From an uncultured Actinomycetes bacterium (lineage in GTDB: Bacteria > Actinomycetota > Acidimicrobiia > Acidimicrobiales > Microtrichaceae): a stretch of DNA of 64,000 nucleotides. Positions within the stretch are counted from its first letter, which is position 1, and each line of letters starts with the position of its first letter. The DNA is taken from positions 1 to 64,000 of the forward strand of contig CAINRS010000043.1 in assembly GCA_903852755.1 (NCBI GenBank), read 5' to 3'. Under the pieces are notes generated by a model that was given only the letters and a program-made list of their open reading frames with translations, made no database searches and was not told where the DNA came from. Positions 6,743 to 38,358 of the stretch are shown here, in pieces. Made by a program: the position numbers and the translations under genes.

Positions 6743-6818
6743 TGGTGGTCGGGACCGGCGTCGATCCGGTGACCTTCCGCTTTTCAGGCGGACGCTCTGC
6801 CAACTGAGCTACCCGACC
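6743..6818 (-). tRNA. tRNA-Phe (GAA)
   Basis: The minus-strand cloverleaf has acceptor GGTCGGG pairing with CCCGACC, a D-arm GCTCAGTTGGCAGAGC and an anticodon loop CTGAAAA, giving anticodon GAA. The T-arm is ACCGG-ATCGACG-CCGGT. The discriminator A and the 3' CCA are encoded. T-loop position 54 is A rather than T. Confidence 0.95.
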
Positions 6819-6855
6819 GGGTACGGACCGGACGCCCGGGGGCACCGGTCCGTGG

Positions 6856-6933
6856 TGGCGGTCCCGACGGGATTTGAACCCGCGACCTCCGGCTTGACAG
6901 GCCGGCGTGCACTCCAAACTGCACCACGGGACC
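6856..6933 (-). tRNA. tRNA-Asp (GTC)
   Basis: Acceptor GGTCCCG pairs with CGGGACC; the anticodon loop CTGTCAA gives anticodon GTC; the T-arm is GCGGG-TTCAAAT-CCCGT. Discriminator G and the CCA end are encoded. Confidence 0.95.
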
Positions 6934-6947
6934 ACGGTTGTGGTCTG

Positions 6948-7020
6948 CACCCCCAACGGGATTCGAACCCGTGTTACCTCCTTGAAAGGGAGGCGTCCTA
7001 GGCCGCTGGACGATGGGGGC
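6948..7020 (-). tRNA. tRNA-Glu (TTC)
   Basis: Acceptor GCCCCCA pairs with TGGGGGT (first pair a G-U wobble, as in other actinobacterial tRNA-Glu). The anticodon loop CTTTCAA gives TTC, and the T-arm is ACGGG-TTCGAAT-CCCGT. CCA is not encoded, unlike in the Asp and Phe neighbours. The order on the transcribed strand is Glu-Asp-Phe. Confidence 0.95.
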
Positions 7021-7560: not shown

Positions 7561-7899
7561 TCAGTCCTGCTGCATCGTGGCCCACAGGCCGTGTTCGTGG
7601 AGGCGGAAGACGTCCCGCTCGGCCTCGTCGCGCGCCCCGCTGGAGACCACCGCCCTGCCCTCGTTGTGGACCTGGAGCATCAGCCGGTTCGCCTCGTGCT
7701 CGGAGTACCCGAAGAGCTTGCGGAACACGAACGCCACGTAGCTCATGAGGTTGACCGGGTCGTTCCAGACGATGACCACCCACGGGGCATCGAGGTCGAC
7801 CTCCTCGGTCGTGTCGGGTTCGACCACCTCGGCGGGCGCCGTCGATGCTGCGGTGTCCCGTACCCGGTGGCCGGTCGATCGCATCGCCGGTCGGCTCAC
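7561..7899 (-). CDS. clpS: ATP-dependent Clp protease adaptor ClpS
   Basis: Delivers N-degron substrates to the ClpAP/ClpCP protease. The core matches Clp[21 protein letters not shown] carries the conserved Asn-Asp/Met substrate pocket, then [18 protein letters not shown]. The chosen start is the GTG at 7899, which overlaps the ctaA stop as GTGA and gives 112 aa; an ATG six codons in (7884) is the alternative. The first about 35 residues are a variable, disordered lead. It is probably co-transcribed with ctaA and the DUF2017 gene. Confidence 0.9.
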
Positions 7900-8903
7900 G
7901 ACGCGGACGCTGCCGCGGTCGGGCCCACCGGTGCGCCGCCCGGTGCCGACGTCACCTCGTCCGTCGAGGTGTGGTGGTCGCTGCCCGCTGCGTCCGCCGC
8001 TGCGACCGGGGCGGAGGTGCCCAGGTGGAACCACACCGTGGTGGCCAGCACGGTGGTCGCGCCGAGGATGTGCAGGAGCACGATCCAGGCCGGGATGCCG
8101 AGCGCGTACTGCAGGTAGCCGATCCCGCCCTGGGCCACGACCACGGCCAGCACGACCCAGGCCCGGCGCAGGATGCGCCCGTCGCCGGCCGTCGCAGCGG
8201 CGGGCCGTCGGGCCAGTCGCACCATGAGCACCACCAGGACGGCCAGGAACACCCACATGTTGATCGAGTGGATCCGGACGACGTCGGGGATGGCCCAGCC
8301 GAAGCGGGGCGAGGCGGCGTCGCCCGCGTGCGGGCCGGAACCGGTGACCGCGGGGCCGGTGAGCATGAGGCACCACGCCAGGGTGACCGCAGCCCGGGAC
8401 AACCAGAGCTCGCCCCGGTCGACCACGACCCGCCGCCGGCCGGGCGGCCGGCCGGCCCGCCAGACCAGGACGACGGCGTTGGTCACCAGCACCATCGACA
8501 GGACGAAGTGTCCGGCGACGGCGAGCGGGTGGAGCTCGACGAGCACCGTGATGCCGCCCAGGACGATCTGACCGATCACGCCGGCGACCAGGCCGAGCGA
8601 CAGCCACACCAGGTCGCGCCGGTAGGGCCGGCGTCGCAGCGATCCGAGCACGGCGGCGGCGACCGACAGTGACACGAGCCCCGTGAACAGCCGGTTGAGC
8701 TGTTCGATCGCCTGGTTGGGCGTGGACACGGCGAGGAACTCATCGGGCTCGCAGTTGGGCCAGTCGGAGCAGCCCAGACCGGATCCCGTCAGCCGGACGG
8801 CGGCACCGGTGATCACGATCGCCACCAGCATCCCGAGGGCGGCGACGGCGAGGCGCCGGTAGGTCGCAGGACGCACGGTGAGTCGTTCGGCGGTCCGGGG
8901 CAC
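7896..8903 (-). CDS. ctaA: heme A synthase (COX15/CtaA family)
   Basis: Oxidises heme O to heme A for the aa3-type oxidase; a membrane enzyme with about eight helices in 335 aa. Family features are the first-loop Cys pair in [12 protein letters not shown], the heme-ligand-type histidines in [18 protein letters not shown] and LHILGATT, and the Asn-Arg motif EQLNRLFTG. It is divergent from ctaB, whose product makes its substrate. A -10 box lies 6 nt before the GTG start. The C-terminus is a low-complexity Ala/Ser tail. Confidence 0.9.
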
Positions 8904-8915: not shown

Positions 8916-9069
8916 GGCGCAGGTGGTGGCCGACCGGGAGGCGCGGCCCCGACCGTCCGGTCGTGACGCCGGCCACTCCCTCCGGCCCGTCGCTCCGGAG
9001 CGTCGCTCGGGATCGTTCCCCGGGGATCGTGCGGGTCACCCGTGCTGGCAGCCCGTGCTCGGCCGCCCG

Positions 9070-9075
9070 TATCCT
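9070..9075 (+). promoter_or_regulatory. -10 element TATCCT, ctaB
   Basis: TATCCT ends 10 nt before the ctaB ATG; the spacer contains no Shine-Dalgarno sequence, so a leaderless or near-leaderless start is likely. Confidence 0.55.
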
Positions 9076-9085
9076 GACGTCCGGC

Positions 9086-9991
9086 ATGGTCGCTCCCGCC
9101 GCACCGGCTCCCCTCCCGCTCACGACGCGGCTCGCCGGGTTCGTCGCGCTCACCAAGCCCCGGATCATCGAACTCCTGCTCGTCACGACGGTGCCCACGA
9201 TGATCGTCGCCGAGGGCGGGTTGCCGTCGGTGTGGCTCATGGTCGCGACCGTCATCGGCGGCACCCTCGCAGCCGGCGGTGCCAACGCCATCAACATGGT
9301 CGTCGACCGTGACATCGACGCCCGGATGGAGCGCACCAAGGGCCGACCGCTGGTCACCGGGGTGGTCACGGCGCGGGAGGCGCTCGTCTTCGCCGTCGGG
9401 ATCGAGGCGCTGGCGTTCGTCTGGCTGGCGCTGCTGGTCAACCTGGTGTCGGCGCTGCTCGCGCTCGCAGCCTGCCTGTTCTACGTCTTCGTCTACACGC
9501 TCTGGCTCAAGCGGTCCTCGAGCCAGAACATCGTGATCGGCGGGGCCGCCGGTGCGGTGCCCGTGCTGATCGGCTGGTCCTCGGTGACCGGGACGGTCTC
9601 GGTCACGGCGTGGCTGCTGTTCGGGGTGATCTTCTTCTGGACCCCACCGCACTTCTGGGCGCTCGCGATCCGGTACCGGGACGACTACGCGGGGGTCGAC
9701 GTCCCGATGCTCCCGGTGGTGGCCGACGACCGGTCGACGGTCCGCCAGATGGTCGCCTACGCCGTCGTGGTGCTCGGACTGAGCGTTGCGGCCGGGTTCA
9801 CCGGGTCGCTCGGCATCCTCTACCTGCTGATCGCCGGGGTCGGCGGCGTCGCCTTCGTGTGGAGCTGCGCCGACCTGCTCCGGAATGCCGAGGCGAGCCG
9901 GGCGATGCGGGTCTTCACCTACTCGATCTGGTACCTCTCGGCGCTGTTCCTCGGGATGGCGGTCGACGTCCTCGTCCGCAACGGTCTCTGA
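9086..9991 (+). CDS. ctaB: protoheme IX farnesyltransferase (heme O synthase)
   Basis: Transfers farnesyl diphosphate to heme B to make heme O. The 301-residue UbiA-fold membrane protein has the motif NAINMVVDRDIDARMERTKG (NxxxDxxxD) in its first Asp-rich loop and FWTPPHFWALAIRYRDDYA in the later loop. The ATG at 9086 is chosen because the family N-terminus (LTKPRIIELLLVTTVPTM) begins shortly after it and a -10 box lies just upstream; an open frame back to 8963 is non-homologous. Divergent from ctaA, upstream of the oxidase operon. Confidence 0.93.
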   Translation: MVAPAAPAPLPLTTRLAGFVALTKPRIIELLLVTTVPTMIVAEGGLPSVWLMVATVIGGTLAAGGANAINMVVDRDIDARMERTKGRPLVTGVVTAREALVFAVGIEALAFVWLALLVNLVSALLALAACLFYVFVYTLWLKRSSSQNIVIGGAAGAVPVLIGWSSVTGTVSVTAWLLFGVIFFWTPPHFWALAIRYRDDYAGVDVPMLPVVADDRSTVRQMVAYAVVVLGLSVAAGFTGSLGILYLLIAGVGGVAFVWSCADLLRNAEASRAMRVFTYSIWYLSALFLGMAVDVLVRNGL

Positions 9992-10245: not shown

Positions 10246-11838
10246 ATGGCAGTGACCGAGACACCACCCGAGAGCCTGGGTGCATCCGGCGGAACCAGGT
10301 CCGTGCGACCCCAGACCCCGCTGGAGCGGCTCCTCGGCGGGGCCGACCACACGACCCTCGGTCGGGCGTTCGTCGTGGCCGGTCTCGGCTGGTTCGCCGT
10401 GGCGATCGTCGCCCGGCTCCTCGTCGGCGTCGACATGGTGGCCGACAACGGGGTGCTCGGCGGTGCGCTCGGTCTGGTCTCCAACAGCGCCCGGGTCGTG
10501 GGCCCGCTGGGGCTGGTGGGAGCGCTCGCCGGCGTGATGTACCTGCTCGTCCCGCTGCAGCTCGCCTCGCCGGCGATCTCGTACCCCCGGGCTGCTGCCC
10601 TCGCGTTCTGGACGTGGCTGCTCGGAATGTTCGTGTTCGCCGTGAGCGTCGCCTTCGACGGCGGTATCGGCGGGGCGAACACCGAGGCCGCCCGCCTGGG
10701 GAACGTCTCACTCGGTGCGACCCTCGCCGCGCTCGGCCTGGCCGCCGTCTGCGTGGCGACCACGGTCGTCACCCACCGACCCGCCGGGATGGGTCTGGCC
10801 CGTGTTCCGTTCGTGTCGTGGGCCGCACTGCTCGGTTCCTCGCTGTGGATCCTCACCCTGGCGGCGGCCTTCGCGCACGTCGTGGTGGGCCACGTCTCCC
10901 GGTTCCGGGCCCCGGGGCTGGCGGAGAACTTCCTGACGGGGATCGTCTGGCTCACCCGGGCCCCGGCGGTCTACGTGCTGGCCATCCCGGTGCTCGGCAT
11001 CGCCGTCGACGTGGTGAGCGCCACCACGGGCACCAAGGTCCGCTTCTACGGTGCCGCCCAGGGCGTGATCGGTGCGTTCGCCATCCTCTCGATCGGGTTC
11101 TGGGCCCAGACGGACCGGTCGGTCAACACCGTCGTGTGGACGTTGTTCGCACTCGCCATCGCCCTCCCGGTGCTCGGACTGCTGGGACTGCTCGGAGACG
11201 CCGCCCGACGTGGCGGGCTCCGGGCCACCCCGGCGCTGCCGCTCGTGCTCGTGTCGGTGCTGCTGCTCCTCGGTTCGGCCGTCGCCGGCCTGCTGTGGTC
11301 GCTCAACCTGGCGGGGTCCGGCGTCCTGCTCGGTTTCGACGTCCGACTGCTGGGCGCGGCGCAGGTGACGTTCGTCGGGGCGACGATGGTGACCGGGGTG
11401 CTCGCAGCGGTGTTCCACTGGGCGCCGCAGTTCTGGGGCGCCCCGGTGCGCCCGGGTCCGGCGTGGGCCGCCTCGCTCCTGACGATCGCCGGCGGCGGGC
11501 TGCTGTCGACGCTGATGCTGGTGCAGGGTCTCGTGCAGCGCAACGGTGAACGACCCGCCAACCAGCTCTTCGGTGTGATCGTGGTGGCCGCGGCCCTGTG
11601 CTACCTGCTCGGGGTCCTCGCTGCGCTCTCGGCGATCCGCGGGGCCGTCGACGCCGCCGCTTCGGCAGCGGACGACGCAGCGACGACGGACGACGCGACC
11701 TCGGTGCAGGGCGCCACGCTCGAGTGGGCGCTCCCAACGCCCGCCAGGGGTGACCGGATCCCCGACGACCTGCCGACGATCGACTCGCCGTACCCGCTCG
11801 CAGCGGAGGGCGACCAGGCTGAGGAGGTGTCCCGGTGA
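10246..11838 (+). CDS. ligand-less cytochrome oxidase subunit I-like protein
   Basis: A 530-residue protein with about 12 membrane helices, homologous to the CtaD encoded downstream. Shared blocks are MYLLVPLQLASPAISYPR (CtaD: NYLLPLQIGARDVAFPR), FWTWLLGMFVF, AGMGLARVPFVSW, AVYVLAIPVLGIAVDVV, FHWAPQFWG (CtaD: YFWWPKIFG) and the C-terminal TLEWALPTPA. Ungapped alignment puts Ser81, Ala239, Gln288, Thr289, Gln373 and Thr375 at the six His ligands of heme a, heme a3 and CuB; the cross-link Tyr is kept (Tyr243). It cannot be a normal oxidase catalytic subunit. A GTG at 10186 is an alternative start. The gene is coupled (GTGA) to a subunit III gene. Confidence 0.8.
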   Translation: MAVTETPPESLGASGGTRSVRPQTPLERLLGGADHTTLGRAFVVAGLGWFAVAIVARLLVGVDMVADNGVLGGALGLVSNSARVVGPLGLVGALAGVMYLLVPLQLASPAISYPRAAALAFWTWLLGMFVFAVSVAFDGGIGGANTEAARLGNVSLGATLAALGLAAVCVATTVVTHRPAGMGLARVPFVSWAALLGSSLWILTLAAAFAHVVVGHVSRFRAPGLAENFLTGIVWLTRAPAVYVLAIPVLGIAVDVVSATTGTKVRFYGAAQGVIGAFAILSIGFWAQTDRSVNTVVWTLFALAIALPVLGLLGLLGDAARRGGLRATPALPLVLVSVLLLLGSAVAGLLWSLNLAGSGVLLGFDVRLLGAAQVTFVGATMVTGVLAAVFHWAPQFWGAPVRPGPAWAASLLTIAGGGLLSTLMLVQGLVQRNGERPANQLFGVIVVAAALCYLLGVLAALSAIRGAVDAAASAADDAATTDDATSVQGATLEWALPTPARGDRIPDDLPTIDSPYPLAAEGDQAEEVSR

Positions 11839-12422
11839 CCGAACTCGCCACCTTGGACCTCGACGAGATCGAACCGGCACCGCCGCTGCGCCGACGGGAG
11901 CTGCTGTTCGCCACGGCGTTCGCCACGGCGGGGGTGGTGATGGTGTTCGTCACGCTGCTCGGGGCCTATCTGGCGGCTCGCAACGCCGCCGGAGACCTCT
12001 GGCTCGAGGGCTCGCGGATCCCGCTGACGCAGGCCAACATGCAGATGGCGACCATGGTCATGGCGGCGGTCACGATGCAGTGGGCCGTCTACTCGATCAG
12101 CCGGGACGACCGGCTCCACGCCTACCTGGCGCTCGGTGTCACGCTCCTGCTCGGGCTGGCGTTCGTGAACCAGACCACCTTCCTCGTCAAGCAGGCCAAC
12201 GTCGTGCTGGCCGAGCCGGGCGGCGGGCTCTTCTACTCGCTCGTCGGGTTCCACACCGCCATGGTCGTCGTCGGCCTCGCCTACCTCGTCCTGATGTCGT
12301 TCCGGACGCTGGCCGGACAGTTCTCGAGCCGTCAGCCCGACGGGATCTCCGCACCGGCGGTGTACTGGTACGCCTGCGTGGCGACCTACGCCGCCCTGTG
12401 GATCGTCTACGTGATGAAGTGA
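11835..12422 (+). CDS. cytochrome c oxidase subunit III paralogue
   Basis: A 195-residue membrane protein with five predicted helices, belonging to the heme-copper oxidase subunit III family. Features are an N-terminal helix with FVTLLGAYLAAR, then SLVGFHTAMVVVGLAYLV and the C-terminal YWYACVATYAALWIVYVMK. The window also contains a second subunit III (16740-17369), so this one is probably the partner of the ligand-less subunit-I-like protein with which it overlaps by 4 nt. The Glu/His pattern of canonical subunit III is only partly kept. Confidence 0.8.
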   Translation: MTELATLDLDEIEPAPPLRRRELLFATAFATAGVVMVFVTLLGAYLAARNAAGDLWLEGSRIPLTQANMQMATMVMAAVTMQWAVYSISRDDRLHAYLALGVTLLLGLAFVNQTTFLVKQANVVLAEPGGGLFYSLVGFHTAMVVVGLAYLVLMSFRTLAGQFSSRQPDGISAPAVYWYACVATYAALWIVYVMK

Positions 12423-12429
12423 GCAGCTG

Positions 12430-13302
12430 ATGATCACCAGGGGTTCCAAGTTCTTCTTCGCCGCCGCAGGTTCCTGCTACGTCCTGGCGCTGCTGTACGG
12501 ATTCATCACGAGCGCGTCCGATCAGTCGGGCGTGTTCGGCGTGTTCTCCGACGGTGGCGCCGTCCAGGCGATCGTCGGGCCGTTCAGCTTGGGCTGGCTC
12601 GGCGGTGTCGGTGAGCACGTCGGCTACACGGTGCTGATGGGCGCCGCAGCGGTCCTCGCCGGGTTGGGTGGGTTCACCACGGCGTTCCGCGACGGCAGCG
12701 TCGAGGCCGTCGCCCAGATCACGCCCTCCGGTGAGGCGGGACCCGTCGCGGTGCCGAGGGGTCTCAGCTACTGGCCGCTGCTGACGGCGTTCGCCGTCAC
12801 CGTGGCGGTCGTCGGGCTGGCGGTGAACACGGCGTTCTTCGTCCTCGGTGCGGTGCTCATCGTCGTGGCCGGCTTCTCGTGGACCGTGCGCACCTGGGCC
12901 GAGCGGGCGGCCGCCGACCAGGCGGCGAGCAGTGAACTCCGCCACACGATGCTCGACCCGCTCGAGATCCCGGTGCTGTCCCTGGTCGCACTCGGCGTGG
13001 TGGCGGTCAGCATCTCCCAGATCCTGCTTGCCATTCCGGTCGCAGTGGCCACCTACGTGATCATCGTGCTGGCGACGCTGGTGTTCGTGATCGCCGTGGT
13101 GCTGGCCAACCGGCCCCACCTGAAGCGCTCCCTCCTGATCGGACTCCTCGTCGGCGGTGGCCTCCTGCTGATCGTCGGCGGGATCGTCGGCGGGATCCTC
13201 GGCCCGAGCCACGGCGGCGGGAGCGAGGAGGGCCTGGGCGGTTCGCCGATCGTGTCGGTCGTGGGCGATACTGGCTCCGGTGCCGGTTCCGCCGGGTTCT
13301 GA
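12430..13302 (+). CDS. membrane protein of the oxidase operon, unknown
   Basis: A 290-residue polytopic protein with about seven hydrophobic segments and a Gly/Ser-rich C-terminal tail (PSHGGGSEEGLGG). I do not recognise a family. Its position between the pseudo-oxidase pair and ctaC suggests a structural or assembly role in the oxidase or in the accompanying complex. The ATG start lies 7 nt after the preceding stop. No metal-binding motif is visible. Confidence 0.6.
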   Translation: MITRGSKFFFAAAGSCYVLALLYGFITSASDQSGVFGVFSDGGAVQAIVGPFSLGWLGGVGEHVGYTVLMGAAAVLAGLGGFTTAFRDGSVEAVAQITPSGEAGPVAVPRGLSYWPLLTAFAVTVAVVGLAVNTAFFVLGAVLIVVAGFSWTVRTWAERAAADQAASSELRHTMLDPLEIPVLSLVALGVVAVSISQILLAIPVAVATYVIIVLATLVFVIAVVLANRPHLKRSLLIGLLVGGGLLLIVGGIVGGILGPSHGGGSEEGLGGSPIVSVVGDTGSGAGSAGF

Positions 13303-13343: not shown

Positions 13344-14567
13344 ATGCCGAGGAATCGCAAGGCCACCGTGGTCGCCCTGATCAGCACGGCGGCAATCCTC
13401 CTGGGCTTCTGGCTCATCATCCGGACCATCGGGCAGCCGACCGGCAAGCCGCTCAACACCCTGGCCCCGTTCGGCCAGCAGGCCCAGGACATCCAGAACC
13501 TGACGATCCCCGTGTTCGCCGTCGCCGGCGTGATCTTCGTGCTCGTGATGGTCGCCGTGATCTGGATGGTGGTGCGGTTCCGCGCCCCCGACGACGCCGT
13601 CGAGGGCGAGCACGAGCCGGCCCAGACGCACGGCAACACGCCGCTCGAGATCGGTTGGACGATCGTGCCGGCGGTCATCCTGGCGGTGCTGGCCGTGCTC
13701 AACGTCCAGACGCTCCTGCGCCTCGACGACACCGGCGAGAACCCGCTCGAGGTGACGGTCGCCGGGCAGCAGTGGTGGTGGGAGTACCGCTACGACCTCG
13801 ACGGTGACCAGACCCCCGAGATCGTCACCGCCACGCAGATGGTCATGCCGGCGGGTCGCGACGTGACGGTGAAGATCCAGTCGAACGACGTGATCCACTC
13901 CTTCTGGATCCCCTCGCTCAACGGCAAGAAGGACGCCGTGCCGGGCCGGACCCACGAACTCGTGTTCAACTCCGACAACCCCGGGATCTACGAGGGGCAG
14001 TGCACGGAGTTCTGCGGCCTGTCGCACGGGGTGATGCGGATGCAGGTGAAGGTGCTCCCGCCCGCCGAGTACGACGTGTGGATCCGGGAGATGACCAAGG
14101 CGCCGGCGCAACCGACCTCGGCTGCGGCCTCACGGGGCGAGGCGCTGTTCGTCGGGCAGTGCGCCCGATGCCACGAGGTCAACGGCCTCACACCGGACAG
14201 CACGCCGCCGTTCACCTACTCCGACGAGCCCTCACCCGACTACGGCGTTGAGGTCGACTCGTCCCTGTCGTCCAAGAACGCGCCCAACCTGACCAACTTC
14301 ATGATGCGCCAGACCTTCGCCGGCAACCTGCTCGCGCTGTGGGAGGGCGACGCGGCCACCGCCGTGGTCGCGGTCCCCGGTCAGGTCCCGGGAGCCACAC
14401 CCGACAAGGTCAACATCAAGCGGTGGCTCCGCAACCCCCAGGACGTCAAGCCCATGGATGCCGAGAACAACCAGGGCATGCCCAACCTGAACCTGTCCGA
14501 GGACCAGATCGACGACCTGACCGAGTACCTGGTGACGCTCGGTCCGTCGACCCGACCTGCTGCGTGA
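13344..14567 (+). CDS. ctaC: cytochrome c oxidase subunit II fused to cytochrome c (caa3 type)
   Basis: Receives electrons at the outer face and passes them to subunit I. The 407-residue protein has two N-terminal helices (about 10-30 and 55-78 plus a helix at 103-122), then the CuA cupredoxin domain with ligands His185, Cys220, Glu222, Cys224, His228 and Met231 (CTEFCGLSHGVM). A fused C-terminal c-type heme domain follows with C273-A-R-C-H277 and a probable axial Met in GMPNLNL near residue 380. The ATG is preceded by GAAAGGACGGGA. The fusion defines a caa3-type oxidase. Confidence 0.93.
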   Translation: MPRNRKATVVALISTAAILLGFWLIIRTIGQPTGKPLNTLAPFGQQAQDIQNLTIPVFAVAGVIFVLVMVAVIWMVVRFRAPDDAVEGEHEPAQTHGNTPLEIGWTIVPAVILAVLAVLNVQTLLRLDDTGENPLEVTVAGQQWWWEYRYDLDGDQTPEIVTATQMVMPAGRDVTVKIQSNDVIHSFWIPSLNGKKDAVPGRTHELVFNSDNPGIYEGQCTEFCGLSHGVMRMQVKVLPPAEYDVWIREMTKAPAQPTSAAASRGEALFVGQCARCHEVNGLTPDSTPPFTYSDEPSPDYGVEVDSSLSSKNAPNLTNFMMRQTFAGNLLALWEGDAATAVVAVPGQVPGATPDKVNIKRWLRNPQDVKPMDAENNQGMPNLNLSEDQIDDLTEYLVTLGPSTRPAA

Positions 14568-14625: not shown

Positions 14626-16743
14626 ATGGCCATCACCGAGGAACGTCCCCCGCTCGAGCTGACCTCCGGCGACCTCCCGCCGCTCGAGGTCGAGACGCTC
14701 GGCGTCTTCCACCGGCCCCGGGCCACGCACGGCTGGGCCTCGTGGTTCACCACGGTGGACCACAAGAAGATCGGGATCATGTACGGCTTCGCGTCGTTCT
14801 TCTTCCTGCTCGTCGGCGGGTTCGAGGCGATCCTCATCCGGACCCAGCTGGCGGTCCCGGGCAACAAGCTCCTGTCGGCGGACCTCTACAACCAGGTCTT
14901 CACCATGCACGGTGTGACCATGGTGTTCCTCGTGGTGATGCCGCTCGCAGCGGCGTTCGCCAACTACCTGCTGCCCCTGCAGATCGGGGCGCGCGACGTG
15001 GCGTTCCCACGCATGAACGCCCTGTCGCTGTGGGTGTGGCTGCTCGGCGCCATCTTCTTCAACACCTCGTGGTTCCTCGGCGGAGGCGCCGACGGTGGGT
15101 GGTTCAACTACGCGCCCAACTCCGGGGTGGTGTTCTCACCCAGCCACGGCATCGACTTCTACGCCGTGGGCCTGCTGATCATGGGCATCGGCTCCACGGT
15201 GTCGGCGGTCAACCTGACGGTGACGGTGCTCAACATGCGGGCGCCGGGCATGACGCTGATGCGCATGCCGGTGTTCACGTGGATGACCTTCATCGTCCAG
15301 GTGCTGCTGGTGTTCGCCCTCCCGGTCATCACCGTTGCGCTGATCCTGTTGACGGCCGACCGCATGTTCGGGGCCACGTTCTTCGACGCCTCGGCGGGCG
15401 GTGACCCGTTCCTGTGGGAGCACCTGTTCTGGATCTTCGGTCACCCCGAGGTCTACATCATGATCCTGCCGAGCTTCGGGATCGCCTCCGAGGTCATCCC
15501 GACGTTCTCGAGGAAGCCGATCTTCGGCTACCCGTTCATGGTCGGTTCGGGCATCGCCATCGGTTTCATGGGGTGGGGCGTGTGGGCCCACCACATGTTC
15601 GCCTCGGGCATGGGGCCCATCTCGGTGTTGGCGTTCTCGCTCGCCACGATGTTCATCGCCGTGCCGACCGGCGTGAAGATCCTCAACTGGATGGCGACCA
15701 TGTACGGCGGTCGGATCCGCTTCACGACGGCCATGCTGTTCTCGGTCGGCCTGGTCGCCATGTTCACGATCGGCGGCCTCTCGGGCGTCACCCACGCGTT
15801 CGCCCCGATGGACACCCAGCAGACCGACACCTACTACATCGTCGCCCACTTCCACTACGTGCTGTTCGGCGGGGCCCTCTTCGGCCTGTTCTCGGGCATG
15901 TACTTCTGGTGGCCGAAGATCTTCGGGTACTTCCTCAACGAGAAGCTGGGCAAGTGGCACTTCTGGTTGATGATCCTCGGCTTCAACCTGACCTTCGGTC
16001 CGATGCACATCCTCGGTCTGCAGGGCATGATGCGACGGACCTACACCTACACCGAGGGCCAGGGGTTCAACGGCTGGAACCTGGTGGCGACCATCGGCGC
16101 CTACCTGATCGCCGTGTCGATCCTGGTGTTCATGTGGAACGTGATCCGGAGCTACCGCCAGCACCGGGCCAACCCCGTCAACCCCGGCCCGGACCCGTGG
16201 GACGCACGCTCGCTCGAGTGGATGGTCCCGTCGCCGACGCCGGAGCACAACTTCGACGAGGTGCCGGTGGTCGAGGACTTCGACGAGTTCTGGCACCGGA
16301 AGTACGGCCACGACGAGCAGGGTCGACCCGTGCGCATCGCCGCCACCGAGGACGTCGTCCAGAAGGGCGACGCGACGGACGTGCACCTGCCGTCGCCGTC
16401 GTACTGGCCGCTCGTGCTGGCCGCCGGACTGCCGCTGATCGGCTACGGGCTCATCTTCAACCTGTGGTGGGCGCTCCCGGGGGCGATCCTCCTGATCGCC
16501 GGGATCTACGGCTGGGTGCTGGAGCCGTCGACCGATCCGTCGGCCGGCCACGGTCACGACGACGACCACCACCACGACGGTGACGACGGCGACGCTGCGG
16601 CGCTCGAGGAGCCCTCTGGCGACGAGGCCGACACGGCTTCCGGCGACGAGGCCGGCGAGGGTGCCGGCGTCGCTTCGGCGGACGAACCCGAGCCGGCGAT
16701 GGCCTCGGCGTCGGCCGATGCAGAGGACGGGGGATCCAAGTGA
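14626..16743 (+). CDS. ctaD: cytochrome c oxidase subunit I
   Basis: Catalytic subunit reducing O2 to water at the heme a3-CuB centre while pumping protons. All ligands are present: His95 and His410 (heme a), His408 (heme a3), and His273, His322 and His323 (CuB), with cross-link Tyr277 in GHPEVYI. At 705 residues it is longer than usual: after the conserved SLEWMVPSPTPEHNFDEVP comes an extra hydrophobic hairpin (about residues 585-630). A His/Asp-rich, then very acidic, low-complexity tail of about 75 residues (DDDHHHDGDDGD) follows, possibly metal-binding. The stop overlaps the start of ctaE. Confidence 0.95.
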   Translation: MAITEERPPLELTSGDLPPLEVETLGVFHRPRATHGWASWFTTVDHKKIGIMYGFASFFFLLVGGFEAILIRTQLAVPGNKLLSADLYNQVFTMHGVTMVFLVVMPLAAAFANYLLPLQIGARDVAFPRMNALSLWVWLLGAIFFNTSWFLGGGADGGWFNYAPNSGVVFSPSHGIDFYAVGLLIMGIGSTVSAVNLTVTVLNMRAPGMTLMRMPVFTWMTFIVQVLLVFALPVITVALILLTADRMFGATFFDASAGGDPFLWEHLFWIFGHPEVYIMILPSFGIASEVIPTFSRKPIFGYPFMVGSGIAIGFMGWGVWAHHMFASGMGPISVLAFSLATMFIAVPTGVKILNWMATMYGGRIRFTTAMLFSVGLVAMFTIGGLSGVTHAFAPMDTQQTDTYYIVAHFHYVLFGGALFGLFSGMYFWWPKIFGYFLNEKLGKWHFWLMILGFNLTFGPMHILGLQGMMRRTYTYTEGQGFNGWNLVATIGAYLIAVSILVFMWNVIRSYRQHRANPVNPGPDPWDARSLEWMVPSPTPEHNFDEVPVVEDFDEFWHRKYGHDEQGRPVRIAATEDVVQKGDATDVHLPSPSYWPLVLAAGLPLIGYGLIFNLWWALPGAILLIAGIYGWVLEPSTDPSAGHGHDDDHHHDGDDGDAAALEEPSGDEADTASGDEAGEGAGVASADEPEPAMASASADAEDGGSK

Positions 16744-17369
16744 CCGACGTGGCGCTCGAACCGGTCGACGACGTCGAGTTCCCCGACGACGTCCACGCGA
16801 CCTCCACCGGCATCTCCAACCCGAAGTTGGCGATGTGGACCTACCTGGCCTCGGACTGCCTCCTCTTCGGCGGCCTGATCTCCACGTACCTCCTCTACCG
16901 CAACCGGCCGGGGAACATCCCGGGCCTGTCGGGGTCGGATCTGCGCGCCTCGGAGCTGTTCAACATCCCCTTCACCTCGATGACCAGCTTCATCCTGCTG
17001 ATGAGCTCGCTCACCATGGTGCTGGCGGTCAACGCCGTCATGCGTCGGGATGTGGAACGGATGCGCCTGTGGCTCGTCGCCACCTCGGTGCTCGGTGCGA
17101 TGTTCCTGGGTGGCCAGATCTACGAGTTCGCCGAGTTCGTCAACTACGGGCTCGGGTACACCTCGAACGTGTCGGCGTCGGCCTTCTACACGCTCACCGG
17201 CCTGCACGGCGCGCACGTGGCGGTCGGTGTCCTCATGCTCATCTCGGCGACCGTGTACTCGATGCGGCGCCAGTTGAACGCCGAGGCGGTCGAGACGCTG
17301 GGCCTGTACTGGCACTTCGTCGACATCGTCTGGGTGGTCATCTTCGCCATCGTCTACCTGATCCCCTGA
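16740..17369 (+). CDS. ctaE: cytochrome c oxidase subunit III
   Basis: A 209-residue five-helix subunit III of the caa3 oxidase. Conserved features are KLAMWTYLASDCLLFGGLISTYLLYR at the N-terminus (long helix), GQIYEFAEF, FYTLTGLHGAHVAVGVLML and the terminal YWHFVDIVWVVIFAIVYLIP. The GTG start overlaps the ctaD stop by 4 nt (GTGA). Confidence 0.92.
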   Translation: MTDVALEPVDDVEFPDDVHATSTGISNPKLAMWTYLASDCLLFGGLISTYLLYRNRPGNIPGLSGSDLRASELFNIPFTSMTSFILLMSSLTMVLAVNAVMRRDVERMRLWLVATSVLGAMFLGGQIYEFAEFVNYGLGYTSNVSASAFYTLTGLHGAHVAVGVLMLISATVYSMRRQLNAEAVETLGLYWHFVDIVWVVIFAIVYLIP

Positions 17370-17379
17370 GGAGCGGTTC

Positions 17380-17820
17380 GTGAGCGCAACCATCGACGTC
17401 GACGACGACTCGCCGGTCCACCCGGGCGAGCACCACGACCACGGCCCGAGTGACGGCACCTACTGGAAGGTCTTCTGGGCACTCGTCGTCATCACGGCGC
17501 TCGAGGTCTCGACCTACTTCTGGGACGTCTGGTTCGGCGAGTCCTCGTGGACGTTCGCCGTGCCGCTGCTGCTCGTCCTGATGGTCGTGAAGTTCGTGCT
17601 GATCGCCTCGGTGTTCATGCACCTGCGATTCGACTCGAAGCTGCTGACCCGCATCTTCTACTTCGGCCTGGCGCTCGCCTGCATCGTGTACCTCGCAGCG
17701 CTCGCGGTGATGAACATCTTCACCGACAACGGCAACCCCTGGTTCAACGACCCGCCTCCCGCCGTCACGCCCAGTGCGGTGGTGACCGGTGAGACGACCG
17801 GAGGGGGCATGGGCGGCTGA
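17380..17820 (+). CDS. ctaF: cytochrome c oxidase subunit IV (prokaryotic COX4 type)
   Basis: A 146-residue small membrane subunit with three helices. The family pattern YWKVFWALVVITALEVSTY, VVKFVLIASVFMHLRFDSK and the last helix around YLAALAVMNIF match prokaryotic subunit IV. The N-terminus is His/Asp-rich (EHHDHGPSDGT). Preceded by GAGGAGCG. It is the last gene of the oxidase operon; a convergent ABC exporter follows. Confidence 0.85.
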   Translation: MSATIDVDDDSPVHPGEHHDHGPSDGTYWKVFWALVVITALEVSTYFWDVWFGESSWTFAVPLLLVLMVVKFVLIASVFMHLRFDSKLLTRIFYFGLALACIVYLAALAVMNIFTDNGNPWFNDPPPAVTPSAVVTGETTGGGMGG

Positions 17821-38172: not shown

Positions 38173-38245
38173 GGGCCTCTAGCTCAACTGGCAGAGCAGC
38201 GGACTTTTAATCCGTCGGTTCAGGGTTCGAGCCCCTGGGGGCCCA
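38173..38245 (+). tRNA. tRNA-Lys (TTT)
   Basis: Acceptor GGGCCTC pairs with GGGGCCC (one G-U); the D-arm is GCTCAACTGGCAGAGC; the anticodon stem GCGGA/TCCGT encloses CTTTTAA, anticodon TTT; the T-arm is CAGGG-TTCGAGC-CCCTG; discriminator A. CCA is not encoded. Confidence 0.95.
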
Positions 38246-38252
38246 CGCGGAT

Positions 38253-38271
38253 CACCGGTCGGGGACCGGTG
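38253..38271 (+). terminator. hairpin between tRNA-Lys and its partial copy
   Basis: CACCGGTC-GGG-GACCGGTG is a perfect 8-bp stem with a 3-nt loop beginning 8 nt after the tRNA-Lys 3' end, followed by AGCGGACTTTT. It could act as the tRNA-Lys terminator, using the T-run of the copied anticodon loop. Confidence 0.45.
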
Positions 38272-38272
38272 A

Positions 38273-38319
38273 GCGGACTTTTCATCCGTCGGTTCAGGGT
38301 TCGAGCCCCTGGGGGCCCA
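38273..38319 (+). pseudogene. partial tRNA-Lys copy (3' 47 nt)
   Basis: Identical to tRNA-Lys positions 38199-38245 in 46 of 47 bases, offset by 74 nt. It covers the anticodon arm, variable loop, T-arm and 3' acceptor strand. The single change is A to C at position 37, 3' of the anticodon. The 5' acceptor strand and D-arm are absent, replaced by a hairpin, so no cloverleaf forms. Confidence 0.85.
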
Positions 38320-38358
38320 CTTCCAGCCCCTGCCCCCTCGCTCGGGGACACCGGTCGC

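Follow-up and report, generated by a model that had tools for sequence, protein, structure and literature searches.

To our knowledge, all members of the heme-copper oxidase superfamily keep their heme ligands and a binuclear centre. The closest known relative of the protein considered here, which we call psCtaD, is the A-type subunit I (CtaD/CoxA, PF00115), with which it shares the fold of 12 transmembrane (TM) helices, an N-terminal DHK..G motif, a PLQ...PR motif and the LEW tail. It differs in that no member of its family has a CuB site, the ligands of heme a and heme a3 are mostly lost, the D- and K-channels are lost, and identity to the CtaD encoded next to it is about 26%. Likewise, the neighbouring psCtaE is homologous to subunit III (CtaE, PF00510) and coupled to a subunit I as in real oxidases, but it is found only paired with psCtaD, in a module that carries no subunit II gene.

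In design, the nearest described systems are the eNOR-type two-subunit NO reductases, which have a cupredoxin subunit II (PMC8756737). Basal members of our family likewise pair a subunit-I-like protein predicted to bear heme with a membrane-bound cupredoxin. However, the NO reductases keep the histidines of the binuclear centre, whereas the modules have no non-heme metal site, its His ligands being absent, and their copper domain follows a hairpin resembling subunit IV. Surf1, Sco and Caa3_CtaG, which are cytochrome oxidase assembly factors (reviewed in PMC9145763), are encoded in the same genome and possibly belong to the same pathway as the module, but their folds are unrelated to it and none of them is a paralogue of subunit I or III. 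The earlier note on this DNA knew of no description of such a module, and we found none in open-access full texts.

A subunit I paralogue in front of a caa3 operon

The window, i.e., the whole stretch of 64,000 nucleotides that was analysed, contains the following genes around the module:

7896-8903, minus strand: ctaA, heme A synthase, divergent (Pfam COX15-CtaA, 2.5e-22)
8963-9991, plus strand: ctaB, heme O synthase, directly upstream of the module, a conserved position; exact start uncertain (Pfam UbiA, 2.1e-63)
10246-11838, plus strand: psCtaD, ligand-less subunit I paralogue, 530 aa, 12 predicted TM helices (COX1 match, fold, residues at the ligand positions)
11835-12422, plus strand: psCtaE, subunit III paralogue, 195 aa (COX3 match, HHalign match to CtaE)
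12430-13302, plus strand: MP3, membrane protein, 290 aa; residues about 90-160 are a probable paralogue of the C-terminal subunit-IV-like hairpin of CtaD
13344-14567, plus strand: ctaC, subunit II with a CuA domain and a C-terminal cytochrome c domain (Pfam COX2, 5.9e-21; Cytochrom_C, 4e-9)
14626-16743, plus strand: ctaD, catalytic subunit I with all six His and a fused C-terminal IV-like hairpin (Pfam COX1, 1.2e-154; Cyt_c_ox_IV, 3.1e-7)
16740-17369, plus strand: ctaE, subunit III of the catalytic set (Pfam COX3, 2.5e-18)
17380-17820, plus strand: ctaF, subunit IV (Pfam COX4_pro, 2.4e-10)

The window also holds tRNA genes for Phe, Asp and Glu in tandem (6743-7020, minus strand), and at 38173-38320 a predicted tRNA-Lys and a predicted tRNA-Pro overlap by 18 bases, such that one of the two calls is probably spurious.

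The earlier note had presented psCtaD as a subunit I paralogue without metal ligands that resembles CtaD over its full length, and this description stands. In a profile search, psCtaD matched Pfam COX1 (PF00115) with an E-value of 4.3e-14 and 52.7 bits against a cut-off of 34.8, and it matched the NCBIfam model TIGR02891 (CtaD_CoxA) at 1.3e-18, far under the equivalog cut-off. Its alignment with CtaD spans 457 columns at 26% identity (E 2e-19) and includes the LEW tail. An AlphaFold2 model is confident and shows 12 helices (pLDDT 88.4, pTM 0.91), and its top Foldseek matches in the PDB are oxidase subunits I (TM 0.80, E 6e-15), so that the structural match on which the note had staked its claim was found. 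The start at 10246 is backed by an N-terminal motif common to the relatives, M[AT]xT[ED], and this conserved motif together with the confident fold rules out an artefact of ORF calling. Hence, psCtaD is confirmed as a genuine subunit I homologue of the heme-copper oxidase superfamily. It and CtaD are the only two COX1 genes in the genome.

Opposite the six ligand histidines of CtaD (H95, H273, H322, H323, H408 and H410), psCtaD has Ser81/Ala82, Ala239, Gln288, Thr289, Gln373 and Thr375, and thus no histidine at any of them; the first position is given as a pair since the alignment of TM2 is uncertain by one residue, but that helix contains no His at all. The cross-link tyrosine (Tyr243) is kept, in agreement with the earlier note. 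At the proton-uptake positions of the D- and K-channels (D124, N131, E275 and K351 in CtaD), psCtaD carries A, A, A and L, and its helix cores hold hardly any charged residue. Exchanges of the channel residues, mostly for small or apolar ones, are found in nearly all forms without cofactor sites (apo forms). Judged by these residues and by the absent binuclear centre, O2 reduction and proton pumping by the window protein would be excluded.

The start of psCtaE, a GTG codon, overlaps the stop of psCtaD (GTGA), with the motif GAGGAGGTG ahead of the overlap. The protein is homologous to COX3 (PF00510, 2.2e-9) and 26% identical to CtaE (HHalign 99.4%), which upholds the proposed coupling to a separate subunit III paralogue. 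In contrast, the third protein, MP3, which the earlier note had called unknown, can be placed in part: its residues 90-160 or so match the C-terminal hairpin of CtaD (HHalign 96.1%, E 3.6e-9), and its basal relatives carry a C-terminal cupredoxin. The match of MP3 to Pfam Cyt_c_ox_IV (PF12270) is weak (0.0062; 17.1 bits versus a cut-off of 26.9), and its structure model, with about 7 long helices, is of low confidence (pTM 0.42). The module is thus composed of I′, III′ and IV′ (psCtaD, psCtaE and MP3) and has no gene for a subunit II. This composition is consistent with a copper domain having once been supplied by MP3. The cupredoxin domain with its H-C-H-M ligands is absent from the MP3 of the window, in whose lineage it has been lost.

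Proteins homologous to the C-terminal half of MP3 are encoded behind ctaF in a sister order (L130, 9265-10047) and in another class (L151, 8344-9453). They carry TM segments and one or two cupredoxin domains and, unlike MP3, are products of stand-alone genes without psCtaD or psCtaE; they likely represent the source of this half of MP3. In one group of modules (f7: L047, L086, L088-L091, L093, L094, L097, L116 and L125), the C-terminal part of MP3 is a longer extracytoplasmic domain that lacks copper ligands. An HHalign match of 97.7% suggests that this is a degenerate cupredoxin, though the shared TM part makes up much of the match.

Graded loss of cofactor sites

While all six histidines are present in the real CtaD proteins that we compared (60 of caa-type, one of them with an alignment gap at one position, and 30 others), the CuB site is kept in none of the 170 distinct psCtaD. 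The two histidines that ligate heme a, however, are retained in 35 of the 170, several of which also have the heme a3 histidine. The total loss of ligands seen by the earlier note therefore holds for the window protein, but as a trait of the family it is only the end of a series. The most common substitutes among the 170 are glutamines, at CuB1 (70), CuB2 (110) and the a3 position (67).

The basal modules show what may have been present originally. A plastocyanin-like cupredoxin forms the C-terminus of MP3 in 26 of the 170 modules, and 24 of these have the heme a His pair. The copper ligands H, C, H and M are invariant in all 26, and Pfam Cupredoxin_1 (PF13473) matched each of the six basal MP3 tested. 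Furthermore, the position of R72 in CtaD, the heme-a-formyl arginine that lies at heme a in A-type oxidases, is occupied by Arg in 17 of the 26 cupredoxin forms as compared to 7 of 133 apo forms. The retention of heme a ligands and of a cupredoxin in basal members argues for a redox-active past of the module. In one basal group (f29: L050, L269, L270, L273, L276, L277 and L281-L283), which keeps the heme a histidines and the cupredoxin, the CuB triad is replaced by a largely conserved Tyr-Ser-Glu and the cross-link tyrosine by Trp, and these proteins may have a distinct chemistry.

In phylogenetic analysis, psCtaD forms one clade with a support of 100/100 and has no clear sister group among the A-type oxidases, such that an origin by recent duplication of the neighbouring ctaD is unsupported. 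When the tree is rooted on real CtaD, the forms with cupredoxin and His branch first, and a large apo group that includes the window protein is nested among His-bearing forms without cupredoxin. The simplest order of loss is CuB first, then the cupredoxin and then heme a, with several independent losses of the heme site. The association between heme a ligands and cupredoxin is inseparable from shared ancestry, because each trait changed independently only 5 times and a phylogenetic pair test has no power with so few transitions.

Distribution of the module and its tie to caa3

Gene order was first surveyed in 61 relatives, and the survey was then extended to several hundred genomes from the class and order. 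The arrangement ctaB-psCtaD-psCtaE-MP3-ctaC-D-E-F holds across about 35 family groups of Acidimicrobiales-type genomes. Among 182 module loci, which include some genomes twice under two names and comprise the 170 distinct psCtaD, psCtaE is present in 181 and MP3 in 180. Apart from contig ends, no locus was found in which the module lies away from ctaC-D.

The presence of the module closely follows that of the oxidase. In 397 genomes of the order, the result lists for MP3 and for caa3-type CtaD were compared genome by genome, ignoring kinship: MP3 was present in 246 of the 249 genomes that have a caa3-type CtaD, and absent from 127 of the 148 that lack it. The exceptions that we examined were mostly contig ends, with the module still followed by ctaC or ctaD.

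Almost all named records with the module belong to the Acidimicrobiia (Acidimicrobiales, Acidimicrobiaceae, Microthrixaceae, Ca. Microthrix) or to unplaced actinobacteria. Five metagenome-assembled genomes titled Bifidobacterium breve, Thermoanaerobacterales, Actinomyces or Acidobacteria (L230, L172, L194, L203 and L213) carry the Acidimicrobiia module and are probably misnamed bins. The 20 loci inspected from the best-scoring matches in other classes each encoded an ordinary oxidase with its six His, and the absence of the module elsewhere thus holds for the sample searched. In sister orders of the class (L130, L131), a related caa3 operon occurs and the module is missing from it, which means that caa3 in general does not need it.

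Possible roles beside the working oxidase

The tight tie to a single oxidase argues for a role in that oxidase. We favour the reading that psCtaD, psCtaE and MP3 form a pseudo-oxidase module whose proteins are structural partner subunits, and would be obligate companions, of the caa3-type oxidase whose genes follow immediately downstream. The ancestor of the module would have had no CuB; its I′ would have bound heme a through two histidines, and its MP3 would have carried a cupredoxin with type 1 copper. Electrons would most likely have passed from this periplasmic copper domain into the membrane beside caa3. The window's lineage has lost both the heme and the copper sites. There, the remaining proteins would most likely have a structural and no longer a redox function, packing against the core of caa3 in a kind of oxidase dimerisation between unlike partners and giving the complex stability or shape. 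That the basal forms bind cofactors, that electrons are transferred and that the module's proteins physically join caa3 is read here from conserved residues and gene context, and membership of the caa3 complex in particular is inferred from co-occurrence and synteny. We give an even chance to this history as a whole, in which an electron-transfer complex with heme a and copper became a set of structural, non-redox subunits of the caa3 oxidase.

Synteny and co-occurrence fit an assembly factor equally well, and an assembly platform comes next in our ranking. The module would then be a chaperone-like pseudo-oxidase that holds CtaC, CtaD or CtaE while heme a and copper are inserted, and the sites of the basal forms would be places of cofactor hand-over. 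Such a function would suit the place of the module, which always adjoins ctaB, and usually ctaA, and precedes ctaC-D, as well as its co-occurrence with caa3. However, Sco (3 matches), Surf1 and Caa3_CtaG are encoded elsewhere in the window's genome, which makes this role less likely; furthermore, the H-C-H-M ligands of the basal cupredoxins are those of type 1 electron transfer and not a chaperone motif, and most members have no cofactor sites to hand anything over. We therefore consider it an unlikely explanation, though the most serious of the alternatives.

Less probable still is an independent membrane complex, for instance a sensor, or a carrier of electrons among other partners, that shares the operon for co-regulation only. 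A complex free of caa3 can be imagined, since the module comprises counterparts of subunits I, III and IV and formerly included a copper domain of its own, and the tree shows no clear branching of psCtaD from the CtaD beside it; but the near-perfect match to the presence and absence of caa3, and the lack of any module locus away from ctaC-D other than at contig ends, speak against it. A transporter or a proton or ion channel evolved from an oxidase would make use of the 12-TM fold that psCtaD keeps. This is very improbable, because charged residues are almost missing from the helix cores and nearly all apo forms have lost the proton-channel residues, and no conserved new polar path was identified, although Gln at CuB2 is common (110/170). 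Thus, from the three functions that the earlier note had offered, the structural half of an oxidase is the one we retain, with the assembly platform set back and the transporter close to abandoned.

The note had also allowed for a decaying copy confined to this genome. Within the genus and the family, dN/dS of psCtaD ranges from 0.13 to 0.44 by a crude counting method (the pair L058/L060 gave an aberrant value for ctaD). Most values lie close to those of ctaB and ctaC, and they are about 2.5-4 times those of ctaD. Hence, psCtaD evolves faster than ctaD, yet is clearly maintained by purifying selection. That psCtaD outpaces CtaD and has lost all catalytic residues could suggest a pseudogene on its way out, but this reading is ruled out for practical purposes by 170 distinct modules intact across an order, a dN/dS well under 1, invariant motifs such as PLQ...PR and an identical place in the operon everywhere. 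By contrast, the evidence strongly supports a conserved module that resembles an oxidase but is non-catalytic: it occurs order-wide and in synteny, is under purifying selection and has a confident fold.

The module is a non-catalytic branch of the heme-copper superfamily, and labelling proteins of the psCtaD type 'cytochrome c oxidase subunit I' is a functionally wrong annotation. Nearly every caa3-bearing genome of the order carries this second, look-alike set of subunits, which lacks the metal sites needed for the reaction, beside its working oxidase. Somewhat short of an even chance, in our estimate, is the wider proposal of a new oxidase architecture across the order, in which an active caa3 core would be permanently joined to a dead I/III/IV half that began as a heme a and blue-copper electron-transfer complex without a CuB site and, in several lineages, subsequently lost every cofactor. 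A branch that loses CuB first and then copper and heme, yet stays tied to a working oxidase, offers a natural series from a redox enzyme to a structural part. If expressed, the intermediates with heme a but no CuB would separate a heme a electron-transfer site from O2 chemistry. The proposal also makes a testable prediction about the composition of the respiratory complex in Microthrix-like sludge bacteria and other Acidimicrobiia.
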